This document shows positions 18,862 through 32,153 of a stretch of 33,263 nucleotides of DNA, piece by piece. Each line of letters opens with the position of its first letter. Position 1 is the stretch's first letter. The translations under genes and the position numbers were made by a program. The DNA comes from an uncultured Spartobacteria bacterium (GTDB lineage: Bacteria > Verrucomicrobiota > Verrucomicrobiia > Chthoniobacterales > Chthoniobacteraceae). The notes below the pieces were generated by a model. That model had not been told where the DNA came from and did no database searches. It was given only the letters and a program-made list of their open reading frames with translations. Location: contig CAIYQA010000320.1 in the NCBI GenBank assembly GCA_903928175.1, forward strand, positions 1 to 33,263. Reading direction: 5' to 3'.

Positions 18862-19112
18862 CCAACGGGGCTGAAAACAACGTGGAGGGATCAAACGAAG
18901 TCGTTGAATCGAACCCCCGTACGGACTATTCCGATTGGCACGCGCCGCTTCCCGAAAGGTTGCCAAAGCCTACCATGTGGCCCGCAGTGCTGGCCTTGGG
19001 CGTTTGTTTTCTGGCTTGGGGCATTGTGACTTCCTGGTTCGTTTCCGCCGCAGGGTTTGTATTGTTCGGTGCAGGATGTGCCGGTTGGATTACGGAATTG
19101 CGCAAAGGGTAA
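18858..19112 (+). CDS. Small two-helix membrane protein, probable oxidase subunit IV-like
   Basis: 84 residues: a hydrophilic acidic N-terminus (about 1-38), then PKPTMWPAVLALGVCFLAWG and a second hydrophobic helix (AAGFVLFGAGCAGWI), ending in a short charged tail. The proline-rich lead-in, two helices and a GW pair before the tail resemble small accessory subunits found at the end of bacterial caa3 operons, but I cannot name a family with certainty. It starts in an ATGA overlap with ctaG, the fourth such junction in a row, so it is surely part of the oxidase operon. The last gene of the tightly coupled set; the DUF488 gene follows after 11 bp. Confidence 0.75.
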   Translation: MTNGAENNVEGSNEVVESNPRTDYSDWHAPLPERLPKPTMWPAVLALGVCFLAWGIVTSWFVSAAGFVLFGAGCAGWITELRKG

Positions 19113-19123
19113 ATGGACTGAAA

Positions 19124-19702
19124 ATGGGTGATGACCAGAGGCAAGATCGACAGCGTTGCCCAGCCCTGATCCCTTCGCTGGCAATCTGGACCATTGGTCA
19201 CTCGACTCGGACAATCCATGAGTTCATCGATCTCCTGCACCACCACCAAATTTTGAATCTGGTGGATGTGCGGCACTTCCCGGGATCGCGCCGTTTTCCT
19301 CACTTCAGTAAATCGGCCATGCAGCATTCTCTATCCATCGCGGGCATCCGCTATGAGCATCTGATAGAACTCGGGGGACGTCGGCCAGCGCGACCGAACT
19401 CCCATAACATCGCTTGGCGCAATGCAGCGTTTCGAGGTTATGCCGACTACATGGAGACTCAGCCGTTTCATGATGGCATTACCAACCTTTTGGAGATCGC
19501 TCGCTCTGGGCGCACCGTGATCATGTGTTCTGAATCGGTTTGGTGGCGCTGCCACCGTTCGATGATTGCTGATTTTCTCAAAGCAGCAGGCGTGCAAGTA
19601 TTCCACATCATGGGACTGGACAAAGTCCAAGAGCATCCATTTACGTCGGCTGCGCGGGTGTCGGAGGGAAAACTTTCGTACGAACACAACCCCAAGGAAT
19701 AA
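19124..19702 (+). CDS. DUF488 domain-containing protein
   Basis: A soluble protein of 192 residues matching the longer DUF488 branch: IWTIGHSTRTIHEFIDLL near the N-terminus, LVDVRHFPGSRRFPHF, LGGRRPARPNS, FRGYADYM and MCSESVWWRCHRSMIADFL. The conserved Cys, Trp, Cys and His cluster suggests metal or nucleic-acid chemistry, but no activity is established for the family. The ATG at 19124 is chosen because the 63 codons before it in the tracked ORF overlap the preceding gene and have no family similarity. It lies between the oxidase operon and the Crp/Fnr gene, which follows after 20 bp, and could be co-transcribed with either. Confidence 0.85.
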   Translation: MGDDQRQDRQRCPALIPSLAIWTIGHSTRTIHEFIDLLHHHQILNLVDVRHFPGSRRFPHFSKSAMQHSLSIAGIRYEHLIELGGRRPARPNSHNIAWRNAAFRGYADYMETQPFHDGITNLLEIARSGRTVIMCSESVWWRCHRSMIADFLKAAGVQVFHIMGLDKVQEHPFTSAARVSEGKLSYEHNPKE

Positions 19703-19722: not shown

Positions 19723-20463
19723 GTGATAAGATCGAGCGCAATGCGGCAAGACCTCAATTCTACTCGGTTGGTTGCGATCACGAACTCGCTCCGCGCTTGC
19801 CAGTTGTTTGGCGGCGTTGCAGCGGAAGACTTGGAAAGCATCGCTGCTTTTGTCGTACCGAAGGCATTAAAAAAGGGGGATTATCTTTTCCGCGAAGGCG
19901 CGTCCGCCGAAGGTTTTTATGTTGTGAGGACCGGCTCGATCAACGTGCATCGGGTCAGCCCGGCAGGCAGGGAACAGGTGATCAGCGTATTCCGCGCAGG
20001 GCAATCATTCGCTGAGGCTGCTGTGGCCAGCCAAGGCGGTTACCCGGCGGATGCGCGCGCCCTCGAACCATCCAATGTGTTGTTGGTGCCGAAAGCCGAC
20101 TTTGTCGAACTGCTGCGCAAACGACCGGAACTCGCGTTGCGCATGCTTGCTTCGATGAGTCAGCATTTGCGGGTGATTGTCGGTCGCTTGGAGGATTTGA
20201 CGCTAAAGGACGTGGAGACTCGGCTGGCCAACTGGCTCTTAAAGCGTTGCAAAAAACCTCCTGGAACCGCGAAAGAGATGCTTCAACTGGAAGGCACCAA
20301 GCGGGTGCTGGCAGCGGAACTCGGCACGACGAGCGAAACCCTTTCGCGCACGCTTGCAAAATTTCGCGACGACGGGTTGCTGACGGTTTCCGGGAAGTCG
20401 ATCACCTTGTTTAAACCTGCCGAAATCGAGAAACTTTTGCGCCGGAATCTCGGCGAGGTCTGA
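19723..20463 (+). CDS. Crp/Fnr-family transcriptional regulator, probably NO-responsive
   Basis: A 246-residue regulator (240 if ATG 19741 is used instead of GTG 19723; neither has a clear ribosome-binding site). The N-terminal half is a cyclic-nucleotide-binding-type beta barrel (LKKGDYLFREG, YVVRTGSINVHRVSPAGREQVI, AGQSFAEAAV), then a long dimerisation helix and a winged helix-turn-helix (VLAAELGTTSETLSRTLAKF). It lacks the N-terminal cysteine cluster of FNR, so it does not hold FNR's [4Fe-4S] sensor. Its layout is that of the Dnr/NnrR group, which sense NO through heme; that is inference from neighbours. Likely targets are the two FNR/DNR-like boxes at 22274 and 22341. It converges on hcp. 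Confidence 0.88.
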   Translation: MIRSSAMRQDLNSTRLVAITNSLRACQLFGGVAAEDLESIAAFVVPKALKKGDYLFREGASAEGFYVVRTGSINVHRVSPAGREQVISVFRAGQSFAEAAVASQGGYPADARALEPSNVLLVPKADFVELLRKRPELALRMLASMSQHLRVIVGRLEDLTLKDVETRLANWLLKRCKKPPGTAKEMLQLEGTKRVLAAELGTTSETLSRTLAKFRDDGLLTVSGKSITLFKPAEIEKLLRRNLGEV

Positions 20464-20527: not shown

Positions 20528-22180
20528 TTACGCGGCGGTGCCCAAAATCGCGGCCAGATCCTTCTCCGGCGTGTCAATGGGCATAAGGTTGAATTTCTCC
20601 ACCAATACGCCCAGCACCGTCGGCGTGATGAATGCGGGCAGGGTTGGCCCGAGTCGGATGTTCTTGATGCCGAGAAAGAGCAGCGTGAGCAGAATCGCCA
20701 CGGCTTTTTGCTCATACCAAGAGAGTATCATCGAGAGCGGCAGTTCGTTGACGCCGCATTTGAAGGCGTTTGCGAGAGCCACCGCGACTTGGATCGCGGA
20801 ATAGGCATCGTTGCACTGGCCCATGTCCAGCAGGCGCGGAATGCCGCCGATGTCTCCGAAATCGAGTTTGTTAAACCGATATTTTCCGCACGCCAAGGTT
20901 AGTATCACGCAGTCATCCGGCACGGATTCGGCAAACTCGGTGTAATAATCTCGCCCCACTTTTGCGCCGTCGCATCCGCCCACAAGGAAGAAGTGCTTGA
21001 TCGCGCCGCTTTTCACTGCCTCGACGATTTTATCCGCCACGCCCAGCACGGCGTTGTGGCCGAATCCCGTCAGGATGGTTTTCTCCGATCCGTCCTCGGC
21101 GAATCCCGGCGAGGAGAGGGCTGCCTCGATGACGGGCGCAAAGTTGCCGTCGCTAATATGACGGACGCCGGGCCAACCGACATGGCCGGCGGAAAAAATC
21201 CGCTCCTTGTAGTTGGGCTGCGGTTCCTGAATGCAATTGGTCGTCATCAGGATAGCCCCTGGAAACCGCGCGAACTCCACTTTCTGATCCTGCCAGGCCC
21301 CGCCGTAGTTGCCCGCGAGATGTTTGAAGGCTTTGAGTTTCGGGTAGCCGTGGGCGGGCAGCATTTCGCCGTGGGTATAGATATTGATGCCCATTCCCTC
21401 AGTTTGCTGGAGCAAGTTTTCCAAGTCCTTCAGATCGTGGCCGGAGACGAGGATCGCTTTGCCCTTGATCGGCTCAACGCGCACGGAAACCGGCACGGGA
21501 TGCCCGTAGGTGGCCGTGTGGACCAGATCCAGCATTTCCATGATCTTGAGATTGATTTCGCCACACCGCATCGAGAGTGCAAAGAGCCCGTCCACGCTCG
21601 GCTGTTCCTCAGCGATATAGCTCAACGCCTCGCTGAAGTAAGCATACACCTCGTCGGATTCCTGGCCGAGAATCATCGCGTGATCCGCGTAGGCCGCCGC
21701 GCCTTTGATTCCATAGAGGAGCAACTCCTGGAGTCCGCTGATGTCCGGTCCGAATTGGTCGCAGCGGGAGAGCACCGAGACCACCTCGCCTTGTTTTACC
21801 AGGCCGGGAAGCGTCTCCTCCGGCGACCAAGTTGCGGGGCCACGCAGCACCTCTGGGGATTGTCCCGCTTCCTTCGCCGCCCGTTCGTAGAGATTCCTCG
21901 CAACATCGCGAACGGCGGCTCCGCGTCGAATCACTTTCTCGATTGCCGGGGCATCGAAATTGACATTGGTGACGGTTATAAAAAGGGCTTCGAGAATGAA
22001 GCGGTCGATGGCGCGATCTCTTGCGCCCAGGCGGTGCGCGCGATGGGCATATTGCGCAACGCCCTTGGCCGCATGAACCAGCAGGTCTTGCAGAATGGCG
22101 GTCTCATCGTCCTTGCCGCAGACGGCGAACGTGTTGCAGCCGGTTCCTTTGGAAGTTTGCTCACATTGAAAACAGAACAT
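20528..22180 (-). CDS. hcp: Hydroxylamine reductase / hybrid cluster protein, class I
   Basis: Iron-sulfur protein with a hybrid Fe-S-O cluster, linked to reduction of NO or hydroxylamine under nitrosative stress. I start it at 22180 (MFCFQCEQT), giving 550 residues; the tracked 58-residue extension lacks family similarity. The N-terminal cysteines Cys3, Cys6, Cys15 and Cys21 have CX2C-X8-C-X5-C spacing, the class I pattern typical of anaerobes, which binds a [4Fe-4S] cluster, rather than the class II pattern of E. coli. Downstream cluster-ligand regions are visible (ILVSGHDLKDLE, TNCIQEP, GCDGAK, ACGKYRFN, LDMGQCND). No hcr reductase gene is adjacent. A DNR-like box lies about 94 bp upstream of the start. 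Confidence 0.94.
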   Translation of the reverse strand: MFCFQCEQTSKGTGCNTFAVCGKDDETAILQDLLVHAAKGVAQYAHRAHRLGARDRAIDRFILEALFITVTNVNFDAPAIEKVIRRGAAVRDVARNLYERAAKEAGQSPEVLRGPATWSPEETLPGLVKQGEVVSVLSRCDQFGPDISGLQELLLYGIKGAAAYADHAMILGQESDEVYAYFSEALSYIAEEQPSVDGLFALSMRCGEINLKIMEMLDLVHTATYGHPVPVSVRVEPIKGKAILVSGHDLKDLENLLQQTEGMGINIYTHGEMLPAHGYPKLKAFKHLAGNYGGAWQDQKVEFARFPGAILMTTNCIQEPQPNYKERIFSAGHVGWPGVRHISDGNFAPVIEAALSSPGFAEDGSEKTILTGFGHNAVLGVADKIVEAVKSGAIKHFFLVGGCDGAKVGRDYYTEFAESVPDDCVILTLACGKYRFNKLDFGDIGGIPRLLDMGQCNDAYSAIQVAVALANAFKCGVNELPLSMILSWYEQKAVAILLTLLFLGIKNIRLGPTLPAFITPTVLGVLVEKFNLMPIDTPEKDLAAILGTAA

Positions 22181-22273
22181 AGTGCTTGGATATTTTGGGA
22201 ATGGGTTGATCGTCCAGGCAGCAATTGACCGCCTGACTCCGAGAACGACTACCTTGCGTGCGAGCGCCCCGCA

Positions 22274-22287
22274 TTGATCCGCGTCAA
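22274..22287 (-). promoter_or_regulatory. FNR/DNR-type box upstream of hcp
   Basis: TTGATCCGCGTCAA fits the TTGAT-N4-(A/G)TCAA pattern of FNR/DNR-type regulators. Its center is about 100 bp before the hcp start. The match with one half as GTCAA is the form reported for denitrification regulators. No strong -10 could be fixed at class II distance. Confidence 0.68.
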
Positions 22288-22340
22288 TGTTTTTGGAAAA
22301 ACCCCATCGGATCGTTTCGCGGCGCAAATCCGCAGAATGC

Positions 22341-22354
22341 TTGATCCTCATCAA
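22341..22354 (+). promoter_or_regulatory. FNR/DNR-type box upstream of DUF2249-norZ
   Basis: TTGATCCTCATCAA is a perfect TTGAT-N4-ATCAA palindrome. TAATGT at 22377-22382 lies 32 bp downstream center to center, the spacing expected when the box sits at -41.5 (class II activation). The predicted transcript would begin near 22389, 34 bp before the DUF2249 ATG. Confidence 0.78.
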
Positions 22355-22380
22355 GGAACTCAGCTTGCGTTTGAACTAAT

Positions 22381-22401
22381 GTTGGTGAACATCCTACCAA
22401 C
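22381..22401. promoter_or_regulatory. Short inverted repeat around the predicted norZ-operon transcription start
   Basis: GTTGGT and ACCAAC form 6-bp arms with a 9-nt spacer, covering the start point predicted from the upstream box. It could be a second operator, perhaps for a repressor, or a leader hairpin. Evidence is the symmetry alone. Confidence 0.3.
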
Positions 22402-22422
22402 AAATCAACCATCCATAACACC

Positions 22423-22713
22423 ATGAGCTTTCCTGAAATTCCCAAATCCAAAACCCTCGACGTCCGCCAAATCCCGTGCTCGGACAAGCACCGCCAAATT
22501 TTTGAACGCTGGAATGATATTGCGCCGGGCGATTTCTTCGTTCTGTGGAACAGGCGTGACCCGATTCCGCTCCTGCGCCATTTTGAAGCGGCGCTTGCGG
22601 GCTGTTTTACCTGGGAATACCTGCAAAACGAACCGGACTCCTGCCGGATCAAAATCTCCAAACTCCAGGTAACGTCAGAAGTCACTGACTACCCGACCTG
22701 CCACGGTCACTGA
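22423..22713 (+). CDS. DUF2249 domain protein
   Basis: A 96-residue soluble protein matching DUF2249, a TusA-like fold: LDVRQIPCSDKHRQIFERW at the N-terminus, PGDFFVLWNRRDPIPLLRHFEA in the center and FTWEYLQ near the end. The family often occurs beside NO reductase and other nitrogen-oxide genes, but its reaction is unknown. The usual DHDP of the central motif reads RRDP here. It starts 69 bp after a perfect FNR/DNR-like box and ends 62 bp before norZ, with which it is probably co-transcribed. The C-terminus TCHGH has a Cys and two His that could bind metal (inference). Confidence 0.87.
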   Translation: MSFPEIPKSKTLDVRQIPCSDKHRQIFERWNDIAPGDFFVLWNRRDPIPLLRHFEAALAGCFTWEYLQNEPDSCRIKISKLQVTSEVTDYPTCHGH

Positions 22714-22775: not shown

Positions 22776-25091
22776 ATGAACTCAATAACACCCCCTTCGG
22801 GTCAGCAATCCCCTTCGCAGCGCCCCCTGCTGGTATCCCGGCACTGGGTTCAGGCGGCGATCCTTATCTTTCTCTTCGGGTTCTTCGTGCTCGGGTTCCT
22901 AGCCTATCGCACCTATACGAGCCAGGCACCAATTCCCAGCAAAACGGTCGATCCGCAAGGCGCAGTGGTGTTTACGCGAGCCGATGTCATGGGCGGCCAA
23001 CAGGTGTTTTTGCGCAATGGGCTGATGGAATACGGCTCGATCTTCGGTCACGGCGCATACCTTGGCCCCGATTACACCGCCGATTGTTTGCGGCGCTGGG
23101 CGTTGGCGGTGTTGGAGTCCAAGGGCGGCGCAATCGCGGATAAGGCGCGCGCGGAAACCTTACGGGAATTCAAGACGAACCGATTCGATCCAACTACCGA
23201 CACGCTGAGTTTTTCCAGCGCTCAGGCGAAGGCATTCAACGATCTGAAGGTCTATTACGGCAAATTTTTCGGTGAACCGACCTCCCGGTTCGGGCTTCGA
23301 CCCAAAGCGATTTCCGATAAGCAAGACATCCAGCAGCTTAGCGCCTTCTTCTGCTGGGCCGCCTGGGTGACCACCGCACAGCGACCCGGCGAGGACTATT
23401 CCTACACCAACAACTGGCCGCCGGAACCGCTGGTGGGCAATGCGGCAACCGGCGACGCGGTGGTATGGAGCGTCCTTTCGCTGATTGCCCTGTTGGGTGG
23501 AATAGGCCTGCTCTTCGCCGCCTTTGGGCGTTGGGATTTCCTCGGCTGGCATAGCCGCGAGCGCGAGAGTCTTGCCTTCAGGGCGCCGGATTCGGTGGCG
23601 CTGACTCCCAGCCAACGGGCCTGTGCCTGGTTCTTCCTGGTCATGGTTGCCTTGTTTCTTATTCAAACGATGGTGGGCGGGGCCTCCCAGCATTATCGGG
23701 CCGAACTCTCCAACTTCTTCGGGATCGACCTTGCGCGGTGGTTGCCTTTCAACCTTGCCCGCACCTGGCATTTGCAGCTTGCCATTTTCTGGGTTGCCAC
23801 CTCGTTTCTTGCGGCAGGAATTTTTCTCGCGCCGATGATTTCAGGGAGGGAACCCAAAGGCCAACATTGGCTCGCTTACGGACTTCTTGGGGCACTCGCC
23901 TTGGTCGTGTTTGGGAGCATGGCGGGCGAGTTTGCCGGAATTCACGGCTTATTTCGTCAGAACTGGGAATGGTTCGGCGCCCAAGGGTTTGAATACCTCG
24001 ATCTGGGCCGGTTCTGGCAGGTATTGCTGATTGTAGGGCTATTCTTCTGGGTGGTGATTCTCTATCGCGGATTGCGCGGACACCTTGCGGGCGAGAACAA
24101 GGGCAACATGCCGTGGCTCTTCTTTTTCTCGGCGCTCTCGATTCCTGCTTTCTACGCTGTGGGCCTCCTGGCTCGGCCCTCGGTGCATTTCACCACCACC
24201 GATTTCTGGCGGTTCTGGGTCGTTCATCTTTGGGTGGAGGATTTTCTGGAACTCTTCACCACCATCATGGTGGCCTACCTCTTCGTGCTGCTCGGCGTGG
24301 TGCGCGAACGCGTAGCCCTGACGGTCATCTACCTCGACATCGTGCTCTATTCGGCGGGCGGTGTCATTGGAACCATGCACCACGTCTATTTCTCAGGCGA
24401 ACCCGCTATCCACATGGCCCTCGGGGCCTTTTTCTCTGCGGCGGAAGTCATACCGCTCACATTTTTGACCGTTGAAGCGTGGCGTTTCCTGCAACTCGGC
24501 TCGGTGCAACAAGCGAAGTCGGGCGCTCCCTTTCCCCATTTTTGGGCGGTGATGTTCCTGGTTGCGGTCGGCTTTTGGAACTTCCTGGGCGCAGGCATCT
24601 TTGGCTTTTTGATCAACCTGCCCATCGTCTCCTACTACGAGATCGGCACTGCTTTGACGGCAAACCACGCCCACGCTGCCATGATGGGCGTGTATGGCAT
24701 GCTCTCGGTCGGACTGTCACTCTTTTGCCTGCGTTATATGATCCCCGAAGCGCGGTGGTCGGATCGCGCCGCCAAACTCAGTTTCTGGTCGCTCAACATC
24801 GGACTTTTCTGGATGGTCTTTGTCACGCTGTTCCCGCTGGGCATCCTCCAACTCTACACCTCCGTCAACGAAGGATACTTTGAGGCCCGCAGCCTCAAAA
24901 ATATCACGAGCGGAACCAACGCGCTTCTGGAATGGATGCGGTTACCAGGCGACGTGGTGTTCATCCTGGGGGGCGTAATTCCGATTCTATACCTTTGCTG
25001 GCTTGGCGTGCGCTACATGAGACCGTACGTCCATGAGGAAGAACCTCGGCCTGCCCTGTTCACAGAAATCAGTGAAGACGAAAAAATGTAA
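22776..25091 (+). CDS. norZ: Quinol-dependent nitric oxide reductase (qNor)
   Basis: Reduces two NO to N2O with electrons taken directly from quinol; a single-chain heme-copper-superfamily enzyme with a non-heme iron (FeB). The 771 residues match qNor in length: an N-terminal anchor and periplasmic extension (to about residue 220) fused to a NorB-like core. Ligand motifs: TWHLQLA, HLWVEDFLE (FeB His and Glu), GTMHHVYF (two FeB His) and NHAHAAMMGVYG (heme b3 and heme b His). No CXXCH is present in the extension, consistent with quinol rather than cytochrome c as donor. With no nitrite or nitrous oxide reductase gene in the window, NO detoxification is more likely than full denitrification. Quinol would come from NDH-2 and other dehydrogenases. 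Confidence 0.95.
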   Translation: MNSITPPSGQQSPSQRPLLVSRHWVQAAILIFLFGFFVLGFLAYRTYTSQAPIPSKTVDPQGAVVFTRADVMGGQQVFLRNGLMEYGSIFGHGAYLGPDYTADCLRRWALAVLESKGGAIADKARAETLREFKTNRFDPTTDTLSFSSAQAKAFNDLKVYYGKFFGEPTSRFGLRPKAISDKQDIQQLSAFFCWAAWVTTAQRPGEDYSYTNNWPPEPLVGNAATGDAVVWSVLSLIALLGGIGLLFAAFGRWDFLGWHSRERESLAFRAPDSVALTPSQRACAWFFLVMVALFLIQTMVGGASQHYRAELSNFFGIDLARWLPFNLARTWHLQLAIFWVATSFLAAGIFLAPMISGREPKGQHWLAYGLLGALALVVFGSMAGEFAGIHGLFRQNWEWFGAQGFEYLDLGRFWQVLLIVGLFFWVVILYRGLRGHLAGENKGNMPWLFFFSALSIPAFYAVGLLARPSVHFTTTDFWRFWVVHLWVEDFLELFTTIMVAYLFVLLGVVRERVALTVIYLDIVLYSAGGVIGTMHHVYFSGEPAIHMALGAFFSAAEVIPLTFLTVEAWRFLQLGSVQQAKSGAPFPHFWAVMFLVAVGFWNFLGAGIFGFLINLPIVSYYEIGTALTANHAHAAMMGVYGMLSVGLSLFCLRYMIPEARWSDRAAKLSFWSLNIGLFWMVFVTLFPLGILQLYTSVNEGYFEARSLKNITSGTNALLEWMRLPGDVVFILGGVIPILYLCWLGVRYMRPYVHEEEPRPALFTEISEDEKM

Positions 25092-25202: not shown

Positions 25203-25673
25203 ATGACAAGCGTTCAAAAGCGATTGCAACGTGAGCGGATTACCATCCAACTCATGATCGGAATTTACTGCCGGGGTCGGCATTTGGAGGTGGAATCCCT
25301 CTGCGCTTCCTGTCAGCAACTAGCCGATTACGCGATGCAGCGCGTCGATAGATGCCGGTTCCAGAAAGCCAAACCCACCTGTGCCAAGTGCCCAATCCAT
25401 TGCTATAATCCGGCCATGCGAGAGCAGGTGCGAGAGGTGATGCGTTATGCAGGGCCGCGAATGATGCTACATCACCCCTTACTCGCCATTTTGCACGCAC
25501 TGGATGGATGGCGCACCCGTAATCCGCAAGTCATCGCCGCCAGCGTAAAGCCCGCTCACCTTGAGCAACAACGCGATTCCTTCGGGTCAGTAAGCGCCCA
25601 GGAAAAATGCCACCTGCAAATAGTCTCGCTCGTTCATAGGTTCAGAATGCCGCAAAAGGCATCGAACCCGTGA
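25203..25673 (+). CDS. YgbA_NO family protein (nitrous oxide-stimulated promoter family)
   Basis: A 156-residue soluble protein of the YgbA_NO family. The family core occupies residues 5 to about 105: ERITIQLMIGIYCRGRH, then LCASCQQLADYA, CRFQKAKPTCAKCPIHCYNP and MREQVREVMRYAGPRMMLHHP. Five conserved cysteines suggest a metal or Fe-S site (inference). In enterobacteria ygbA belongs to the NO-responsive NsrR regulon, which agrees with its place 111 bp after norZ. The last 45 or so residues have no family similarity and may be an extension or read-through into the decayed region that follows. This is the last recognisable gene of the NO block. Confidence 0.85.
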   Translation: MTSVQKRLQRERITIQLMIGIYCRGRHLEVESLCASCQQLADYAMQRVDRCRFQKAKPTCAKCPIHCYNPAMREQVREVMRYAGPRMMLHHPLLAILHALDGWRTRNPQVIAASVKPAHLEQQRDSFGSVSAQEKCHLQIVSLVHRFRMPQKASNP

Positions 25674-26044: not shown

Positions 26045-26127
26045 CCTTTATTCATACGGTTTCCAGAGTAAATTTGCCAGAAAATCATTTTCAATCATCT
26101 CGGGTTCGAGCCCCGTAGACTCCGCCA
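26045..26127 (+). repeat. 83-bp direct repeat, left copy (att-like, tRNA-Ser-like 3' end)
   Basis: Matches 32071-32153 with no length change. Both ends are near identical: CGGTTTCCAGAGTAAATT on the left and a final 26 bp (GGTTCGAGCCCCGTAGAC then TCCGCCA) that looks like the T-arm, acceptor strand, discriminator G and CCA of a tRNA-Ser. The 27 bp between have diverged. No D-arm or anticodon arm is present, so this is not a whole tRNA. It reads as an attachment site left by an integrase that targets a tRNA end. Confidence 0.72.
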
Positions 26128-28089: not shown

Positions 28090-28387
28090 AGAGGGCTGCC
28101 AGGAAGGCGAGCAACTCGTCGTTCGGACGATAGCGGCCTACGGGAATGGCGACGGGCTGGGTTTTGGCCAGAGCTTGTTCCTTTACCTGGATGTCAGCGT
28201 GGATGTACATTTGCGTGGTTTCCACGGATTCATGGCCCAACCAAAGCGCAATCACCGTGAGATTCACTCCTTTCTGGATCTGCATGGCTGCGCTATGGCG
28301 AAGCACATGTGGGGTAATAACCTCTGGCTTGCCCCATGTCCCCCTCGCAGAACGCTCACCAACAACGTAGCCCACTTGGGAGAGCAA
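28088..28387 (-). pseudogene. Tyrosine recombinase/integrase, C-terminal fragment
   Basis: The remaining 99 residues hold the second half of a tyrosine recombinase catalytic domain: HVLRHSAAM (His and Arg of the HxxR motif), LIALW-type ALWLGHES (His/Trp site) and TTQMYIHAD, with the nucleophilic tyrosine, then a tail ALAKT...GRYRPNDELLAFL. The first catalytic arginine and the whole N-terminal DNA-binding part are missing; the frame is closed by a stop at 28403-28405 and opens only from TTG. The gene is therefore truncated and inactive. The tail type is shared by recombinases of transposon-like elements, and the end lies within a palindrome, as expected at an element boundary. Confidence 0.85.
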
Positions 28388-28515
28388 CCACGAAAGCGGA
28401 CTTCAATCAGCTCCAGATGCTCTGCGTGCTTTAGAATGAAAAATGCCGATTGGTGAAAATCCCGGTAGGCGATCCACCGACAATCGCCCGATCTACACTG
28501 CTGCTCCTCAAGAAG

Positions 28516-32070: not shown

Positions 32071-32153
32071 CCTTTAACCATGCGGTTTCCAGAGTAAATT
32101 CGGCAAAAATTGAAAACTTAATCTTTTGGGTTCGAGCCCCGTAGACTCCGCCA
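32071..32153 (+). repeat. 83-bp direct repeat, right copy (att-like, tRNA-Ser-like 3' end)
   Basis: Partner of 26045-26127, in the same orientation and equal length, 6,026 bp apart. The ends match and the middle 27 bp differ. The integrase-like N-terminus begins 93 bp downstream, the usual position of an integrase gene next to its attachment site. The divergence in the middle shows that this is not a fresh duplication. Confidence 0.72.

Follow-up and report, generated by a model that had tools for sequence, protein, structure and literature searches.

The divergent gap between hcp and the DUF2249-norZ unit in this Spartobacteria genome carries two FNR/DNR-type boxes, which are very probably the operators of the Crp/Fnr-family regulator encoded beside hcp, each forming the activator half of its own predicted class-II promoter. 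The window, the whole stretch of 33,263 nucleotides that was analysed, is contig C320 of a 3.62-Mb assembly that is 95% complete. Within it, cytochrome oxidase genes with ctaG are followed by a DUF488 gene, the regulator gene, hcp, the gap, a DUF2249 gene, norZ and ygbA. The regulator gene (19723..20463, plus strand, with its start at GTG 19723 or ATG 19741) encodes the Pfam cNMP-binding and HTH_Crp_2 domains. On the minus strand, hcp (20528..22180) encodes a hybrid cluster protein of the NO reductase/hydroxylamine reductase family (Prismane, 9e-165), which also has an NCBIfam hydroxylamine reductase match above the cut-off and PDB matches. On the plus strand beyond the gap lie the DUF2249 gene, first of its unit (22423..22713; PF10006, 1e-21), norZ (22776..25091), encoding a single-subunit, quinol-dependent nitric oxide reductase with COX1 and NorB cytochrome-c-like domains and a match to a PDB qNOR (1.8e-162), and a YgbA-family gene (25203..25673; PF11756, 4.6e-42). 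No box of its own was found for ygbA in the upstream scan, and the gene is likely the distal member of the DUF2249-norZ unit. An Rfam search of the window gave no matches.

The gap (22181-22422) runs from the hcp start codon, which ends at 22180 on the minus strand, to the DUF2249 ATG at 22423; it measures 242 bp, not the 243 bp given in a sequence-only reading of this DNA that preceded our analysis. Both 14-mers singled out in that reading are present: site 1, TTGATCCGCGTCAA, at 22274..22287 and site 2, TTGATCCTCATCAA, at 22341..22354. Both boxes are of the TTGAT form on the plus strand, and site 1 reads TTGAC in the direction of hcp. A genome-wide search located TTGAY-N4-RTCAA at 17 places in the assembly; 15 of these are inside ORFs, and the only two between genes are site 1 and site 2. 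The assignment of the sites to the FNR/DNR type is supported by sequence, more strongly by the comparison across the class than by the single locus. The regulator is the sole HTH_Crp_2 protein and the sole cNMP-binding domain protein found in the assembly, a second Crp/Fnr gene being conceivable in the roughly 5% of the genome that is possibly missing. As the only Crp/Fnr gene found, and one located next door, it is the obvious candidate to act on the boxes.

The earlier reading had also placed a -10-like TAATGT at class-II spacing from site 2. This element (22377..22382, plus strand) has its A and T 30.5 and 34.5 bp 3' of the site centre, which puts +1 at 41.5 from that centre; the predicted DUF2249-norZ start is thus near 22389, with site 2 centred at -41.5 and a 34-nt leader. 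A feature absent from that reading is that site 1 likewise has a class-II promoter layout, directed at hcp on the opposite strand, with a -10-like TAGTCG (22246..22251, minus strand) at class-II spacing, a predicted start near 22239, the site centre at -41.5 and a 59-nt leader. T-12 and A-11 are present in TAGTCG; position -7 is G, not T, and this T is missing both in the window and in its closest relative, locus L053. With both sites spaced in this way, the gap can be read as two back-to-back class-II promoters, the predicted geometry being that which defines the Crp/Fnr class-II type, a site at -41.5 plus a -10 element. In L053, where the regulator is 84% identical, the counterparts of site 1 and site 2 are TTGATCTACATCAA and TTGATTCCCCTCAA, the latter with one mismatch; both boxes are kept although the rest of the gap has diverged.

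The same geometry recurs across the class. When 33 box-to-gene sequences were aligned by their box centres, conservation beyond the box was strongest for A at +30.5 (27/33), T at +34.5 (25/33) and G at +27.5 (25/33); with one hcp per genus, the same columns stood at 13/15, 12/15 and 11/15. These columns (G..A...T) are a predicted -10 element and extended -10 G, located where a site centred at -41.5 needs them. Since the strongest conserved positions other than the box are a -10 element at exactly class-II spacing, activation is the most likely role of the sites.

Box and regulator also occur together. The class survey covered 335 genomes, in 30 of which hcp was found by the search used; in 26 of the 30, counting the window's own genome, the corresponding search found a relative of the regulator, at identities down to 29%. 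Of the 26 genomes with a regulator relative, 24 carry a perfect box 65-123 bp upstream of hcp, versus none of the four without (Fisher, 5.5e-4), and the two exceptions have a one-mismatch box (G293) and a distant hcp (G324). In most of the regulator-bearing hcp genomes the two genes are not neighbours, and in some they are far apart. A box also precedes ygbA in 5/5 other loci examined. The promoter pattern TTGAYNNNNRTCAA-N20-GNNANNNT, whose -10 columns were derived from hcp and ygbA upstream regions, partly in the same genomes, gave 92 matches in 45 of 51 regulator-bearing genomes versus 24 in 14 of 51 genomes without the regulator (Fisher by genome, 4e-10), part of the raw excess being a matter of size, since the control set consists of smaller genomes (about 164 Mb together, against 238 Mb; about 0.15 vs 0.39 matches per Mb). 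Seven of the 24 control matches come from one genome, most of them resembling copies of a repeat, and most of the fetched matches precede genes other than hcp and ygbA.

We read the genes behind 76 fetched promoter matches, a list that retains chance matches inside ORFs. They include DUF2249 (9), copper nitrite reductase (4), cupins (4), azurin (3), nitronate monooxygenase (3), RIC/YtfE (2) and hcp (2), as well as NapA, hemN, cbb3 subunits, a TonB copper receptor and ygbA. With nirK, azurin, qNor and RIC behind boxes or the full promoter, control of nitrite and NO reductases is predicted from sequence only. Several of the listed genes are target kinds described for DNR, NnrR and HcpR (PMC1274295), and the predicted class-wide Verrucomicrobiota regulon is a DNR/HcpR-type denitrification and NO regulon. 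A partial literature search found no earlier description of such a regulon in Verrucomicrobiota.

In 26 of the same 76 matches (L195-L270, all in regulator-bearing genomes), an ATG begins precisely +41.5 or +42.5 from the centre of the box, other offsets typically accounting for one to three. An ATG at the predicted transcription start suggests leaderless mRNAs for many regulon genes; the window's hcp and DUF2249 genes are not of this kind.

The Crp/Fnr gene beyond hcp had been described as lacking an FNR-type cysteine cluster, and indeed the protein has two cysteines only, C26 and C176; an assignment as FNR was rejected, the four-cysteine [4Fe-4S] cluster being absent. The family profile has DNR (3dkw, 5.5e-44) as its best PDB match, ahead of CRP and FNR, and AF2/Foldseek confirmed the Crp/Fnr fold, in which DNR, HcpR, CRP and FNR were not told apart. 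Filing the regulator as DNR was also set aside, because the DNR haem ligand is not conserved: His139, given this role as cited in PMC8510549, aligns with Arg150, which is invariant in 30 aligned relatives. The family keeps His148 and Cys26 almost without exception. The recognition helix reads S-E-T-L-S-R, with ExxSR invariant in the 30 relatives. At the CRP-180 position there is Ser204, followed by Glu205, in agreement with the HcpR1 rule (Ser or Pro at CRP-180, Glu at 181), and Ser at this position has been linked to FNR-like rather than CRP-like boxes (PMC1274295). The upstream scan found no box before the regulator gene or DUF488, so that no autoregulation is visible. The DUF488 gene (18935-19702) ends about 20 bp 5' of the regulator gene, whose transcription may therefore begin at a promoter on the side of cox and DUF488. 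The locus had been called a self-contained NO-response regulon; the adjoining regulator, the boxes and the NO-handling targets are as described, but "self-contained" holds only in part for a locus with no box before the regulator gene and a norZ that probably arrived recently.

From the targets we infer that the signal is NO. It is conceivable, if rather doubtful, that the boxes are real Crp/Fnr operators of a regulator that senses something else, such as low O2 or redox, with the near-invariant Cys26/Cys176 as sensing residues, or a small ligand bound in the cNMP pocket, the NO genes being one output of an anaerobic switch. The Arg150 in place of His139 and the near-invariant C26 and H148 speak for such a signal, as does the presence of cbb3 oxidase and NapA among the class-wide targets. 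However, the targets of known role are mostly NO and nitrite enzymes (hcp, qNor, RIC, nirK, azurin), and DNR-type relatives elsewhere also lack His139, for example the hcp-linked protein of Acidithiobacillus ferrooxidans. This alternative concerns the signal only and is compatible with the paired class-II promoters. A tentative wider proposal, which we regard as possible, is that one Crp/Fnr lineage with neither the FNR cysteines nor the DNR haem ligand governs a Verrucomicrobiota-wide NO and denitrification regulon through a different sensing device, with Cys26 and His148 as candidates, and often through leaderless class-II promoters.

Each site is also placed 108.5 bp upstream of its neighbour's promoter, and upstream FNR sites can modulate class-II promoters. 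This would suit repressor operators, or one looped pair, in place of two independent activator sites, a reading that we consider improbable: the spacing between the sites is not kept, being 67 bp in the window, 55 bp in L053 and 40-81 bp for opposed box pairs in other gaps of the class, whereas the distance from box to -10 is constant, a pattern more in keeping with independent promoters than with a fixed looped pair. In three of the opposed-pair gaps (L072, L256 and L265), the -10 on either side matches at all three positions.

It is very unlikely that another NO regulator, of the NsrR-type Rrf2 family or NorR, controls the gap and that the FNR-like boxes are secondary. The search for such regulators covered the Rrf2 family, of which the assembly encodes three proteins; the C-X5-C-X5-C spacing typical of NsrR/IscR is found in none of them, C-X8 clusters being present in two and no cluster in the third. 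Moreover, what is conserved upstream of hcp across the class is the FNR-type box together with its spaced -10, which tracks the Crp/Fnr gene. That the boxes are chance matches in AT-richer intergenic DNA is hardly credible, as the 14-bp pattern does occur at 17 genome places but simulated 242-bp gaps held one site in 231 of 200,000 cases and two sites in none, and the class-wide conservation contradicts it.

Under the preferred reading, with two independent activator sites, a regulator dimer would bind at -41.5 upon the signal, presumably NO (or low O2), replacing the -35 element and recruiting RNA polymerase. From site 1, on the bottom strand, transcription would start near 22239 into hcp; from site 2, on the top strand, it would start near 22389 into DUF2249-norZ and probably ygbA. 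The hybrid cluster protein and the quinol NO reductase would thereby be switched on together, in both directions. The locus would be the local form of the class-wide regulon, working like proteobacterial DNR and HcpR.

Among known systems, DNR of Pseudomonas and beta-proteobacteria, with the motif TTGATnnnnATCAA (PMC1274295), shares the Crp/Fnr fold, the absence of FNR cysteines, the kind of box and the class-wide targets (nirK, nor, hemN, azurin), and site 2 of the window fits its motif exactly. It differs in the haem ligand, in that the class boxes are more often of the TTGAC form (22/33, with C and T forms mixed), and in the prominence here of hcp, DUF2249 and ygbA. HcpR1 of delta-proteobacteria and cyanobacteria has the motif TTGACnnnnGTCAA and, as described in PMC1274295, a regulator gene adjoining hcp or norB, accompanied by an FNR-like box; Ser/Pro at CRP-180 (Ser204 here) and the Glu and Arg are likewise kept. 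The class boxes mix C and T forms, neither window box has the full TTGACnnnnGTCAA form, and the denitrification targets in the class are wider. The dnr/hcp locus of A. ferrooxidans (plasmid pACF1), a species for which a DNR-regulated hcp was predicted (PMC1274295), resembles the window in that hcp and a Crp/Fnr gene diverge from a gap containing TTGATTTCAATCAA. Its regulator is 32.6% identical, it has one site and no norZ, and its unit carries an FAD oxidoreductase and NnrS, unlike the window. FNR of E. coli and A. fischeri shares the fold, the ExxSR recognition helix, the box and the class-II -41.5 geometry, but the window regulator is without the [4Fe-4S] cysteine cluster.

The gene norZ itself is probably a recent recruit, since the L053 locus has DUF2249 with no norZ behind it and a genome of the same genus encodes a 92%-identical NorZ protein at another locus with no box. 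The DNA similarity to the same-genus copy begins 9 bp before the ATG, and norZ probably moved in behind an existing DUF2249 promoter. In a norZ-centred comparison, most relatives are without a box (present in 9/30), so the box tracks hcp and ygbA better than norZ. A qNor may be brought into the regulon in this way, by coming to lie behind a box that is already there. At the DNA level, norZ (22776-25091) is 85% identical to 7518-9833 of L018, in the same genus. One norZ relative (L067 4305-6510, in G317) is in two pieces around residues 558-585, possibly through a frameshift or assembly error.

Downstream of these genes, identical 26-bp direct repeats, GGGTTCGAGCCCCGTAGACTCCGCCA, are found at 26102-26127 and 32128-32153, 6026 bp apart. 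The repeat resembles the 3' end of a tRNA or tmRNA; a tRNA gene search found none. The repeats look like the attachment-site ends of a small integrated island, and a stretch between them on the minus strand (28090-28390), similar by eye to the C-terminal end of a tyrosine recombinase, is possibly the island's broken integrase.

The predicted Verrucomicrobiota regulon represents a new branch within a known kind of nitric-oxide response and not a new kind of system. With it, Verrucomicrobiota, which are common in lake and soil, gain a testable NO and denitrification regulon under one regulator lineage, with a promoter sequence specific enough to list candidate targets from a genome. It also ties the unstudied DUF2249, YgbA and cupin proteins to NO handling.
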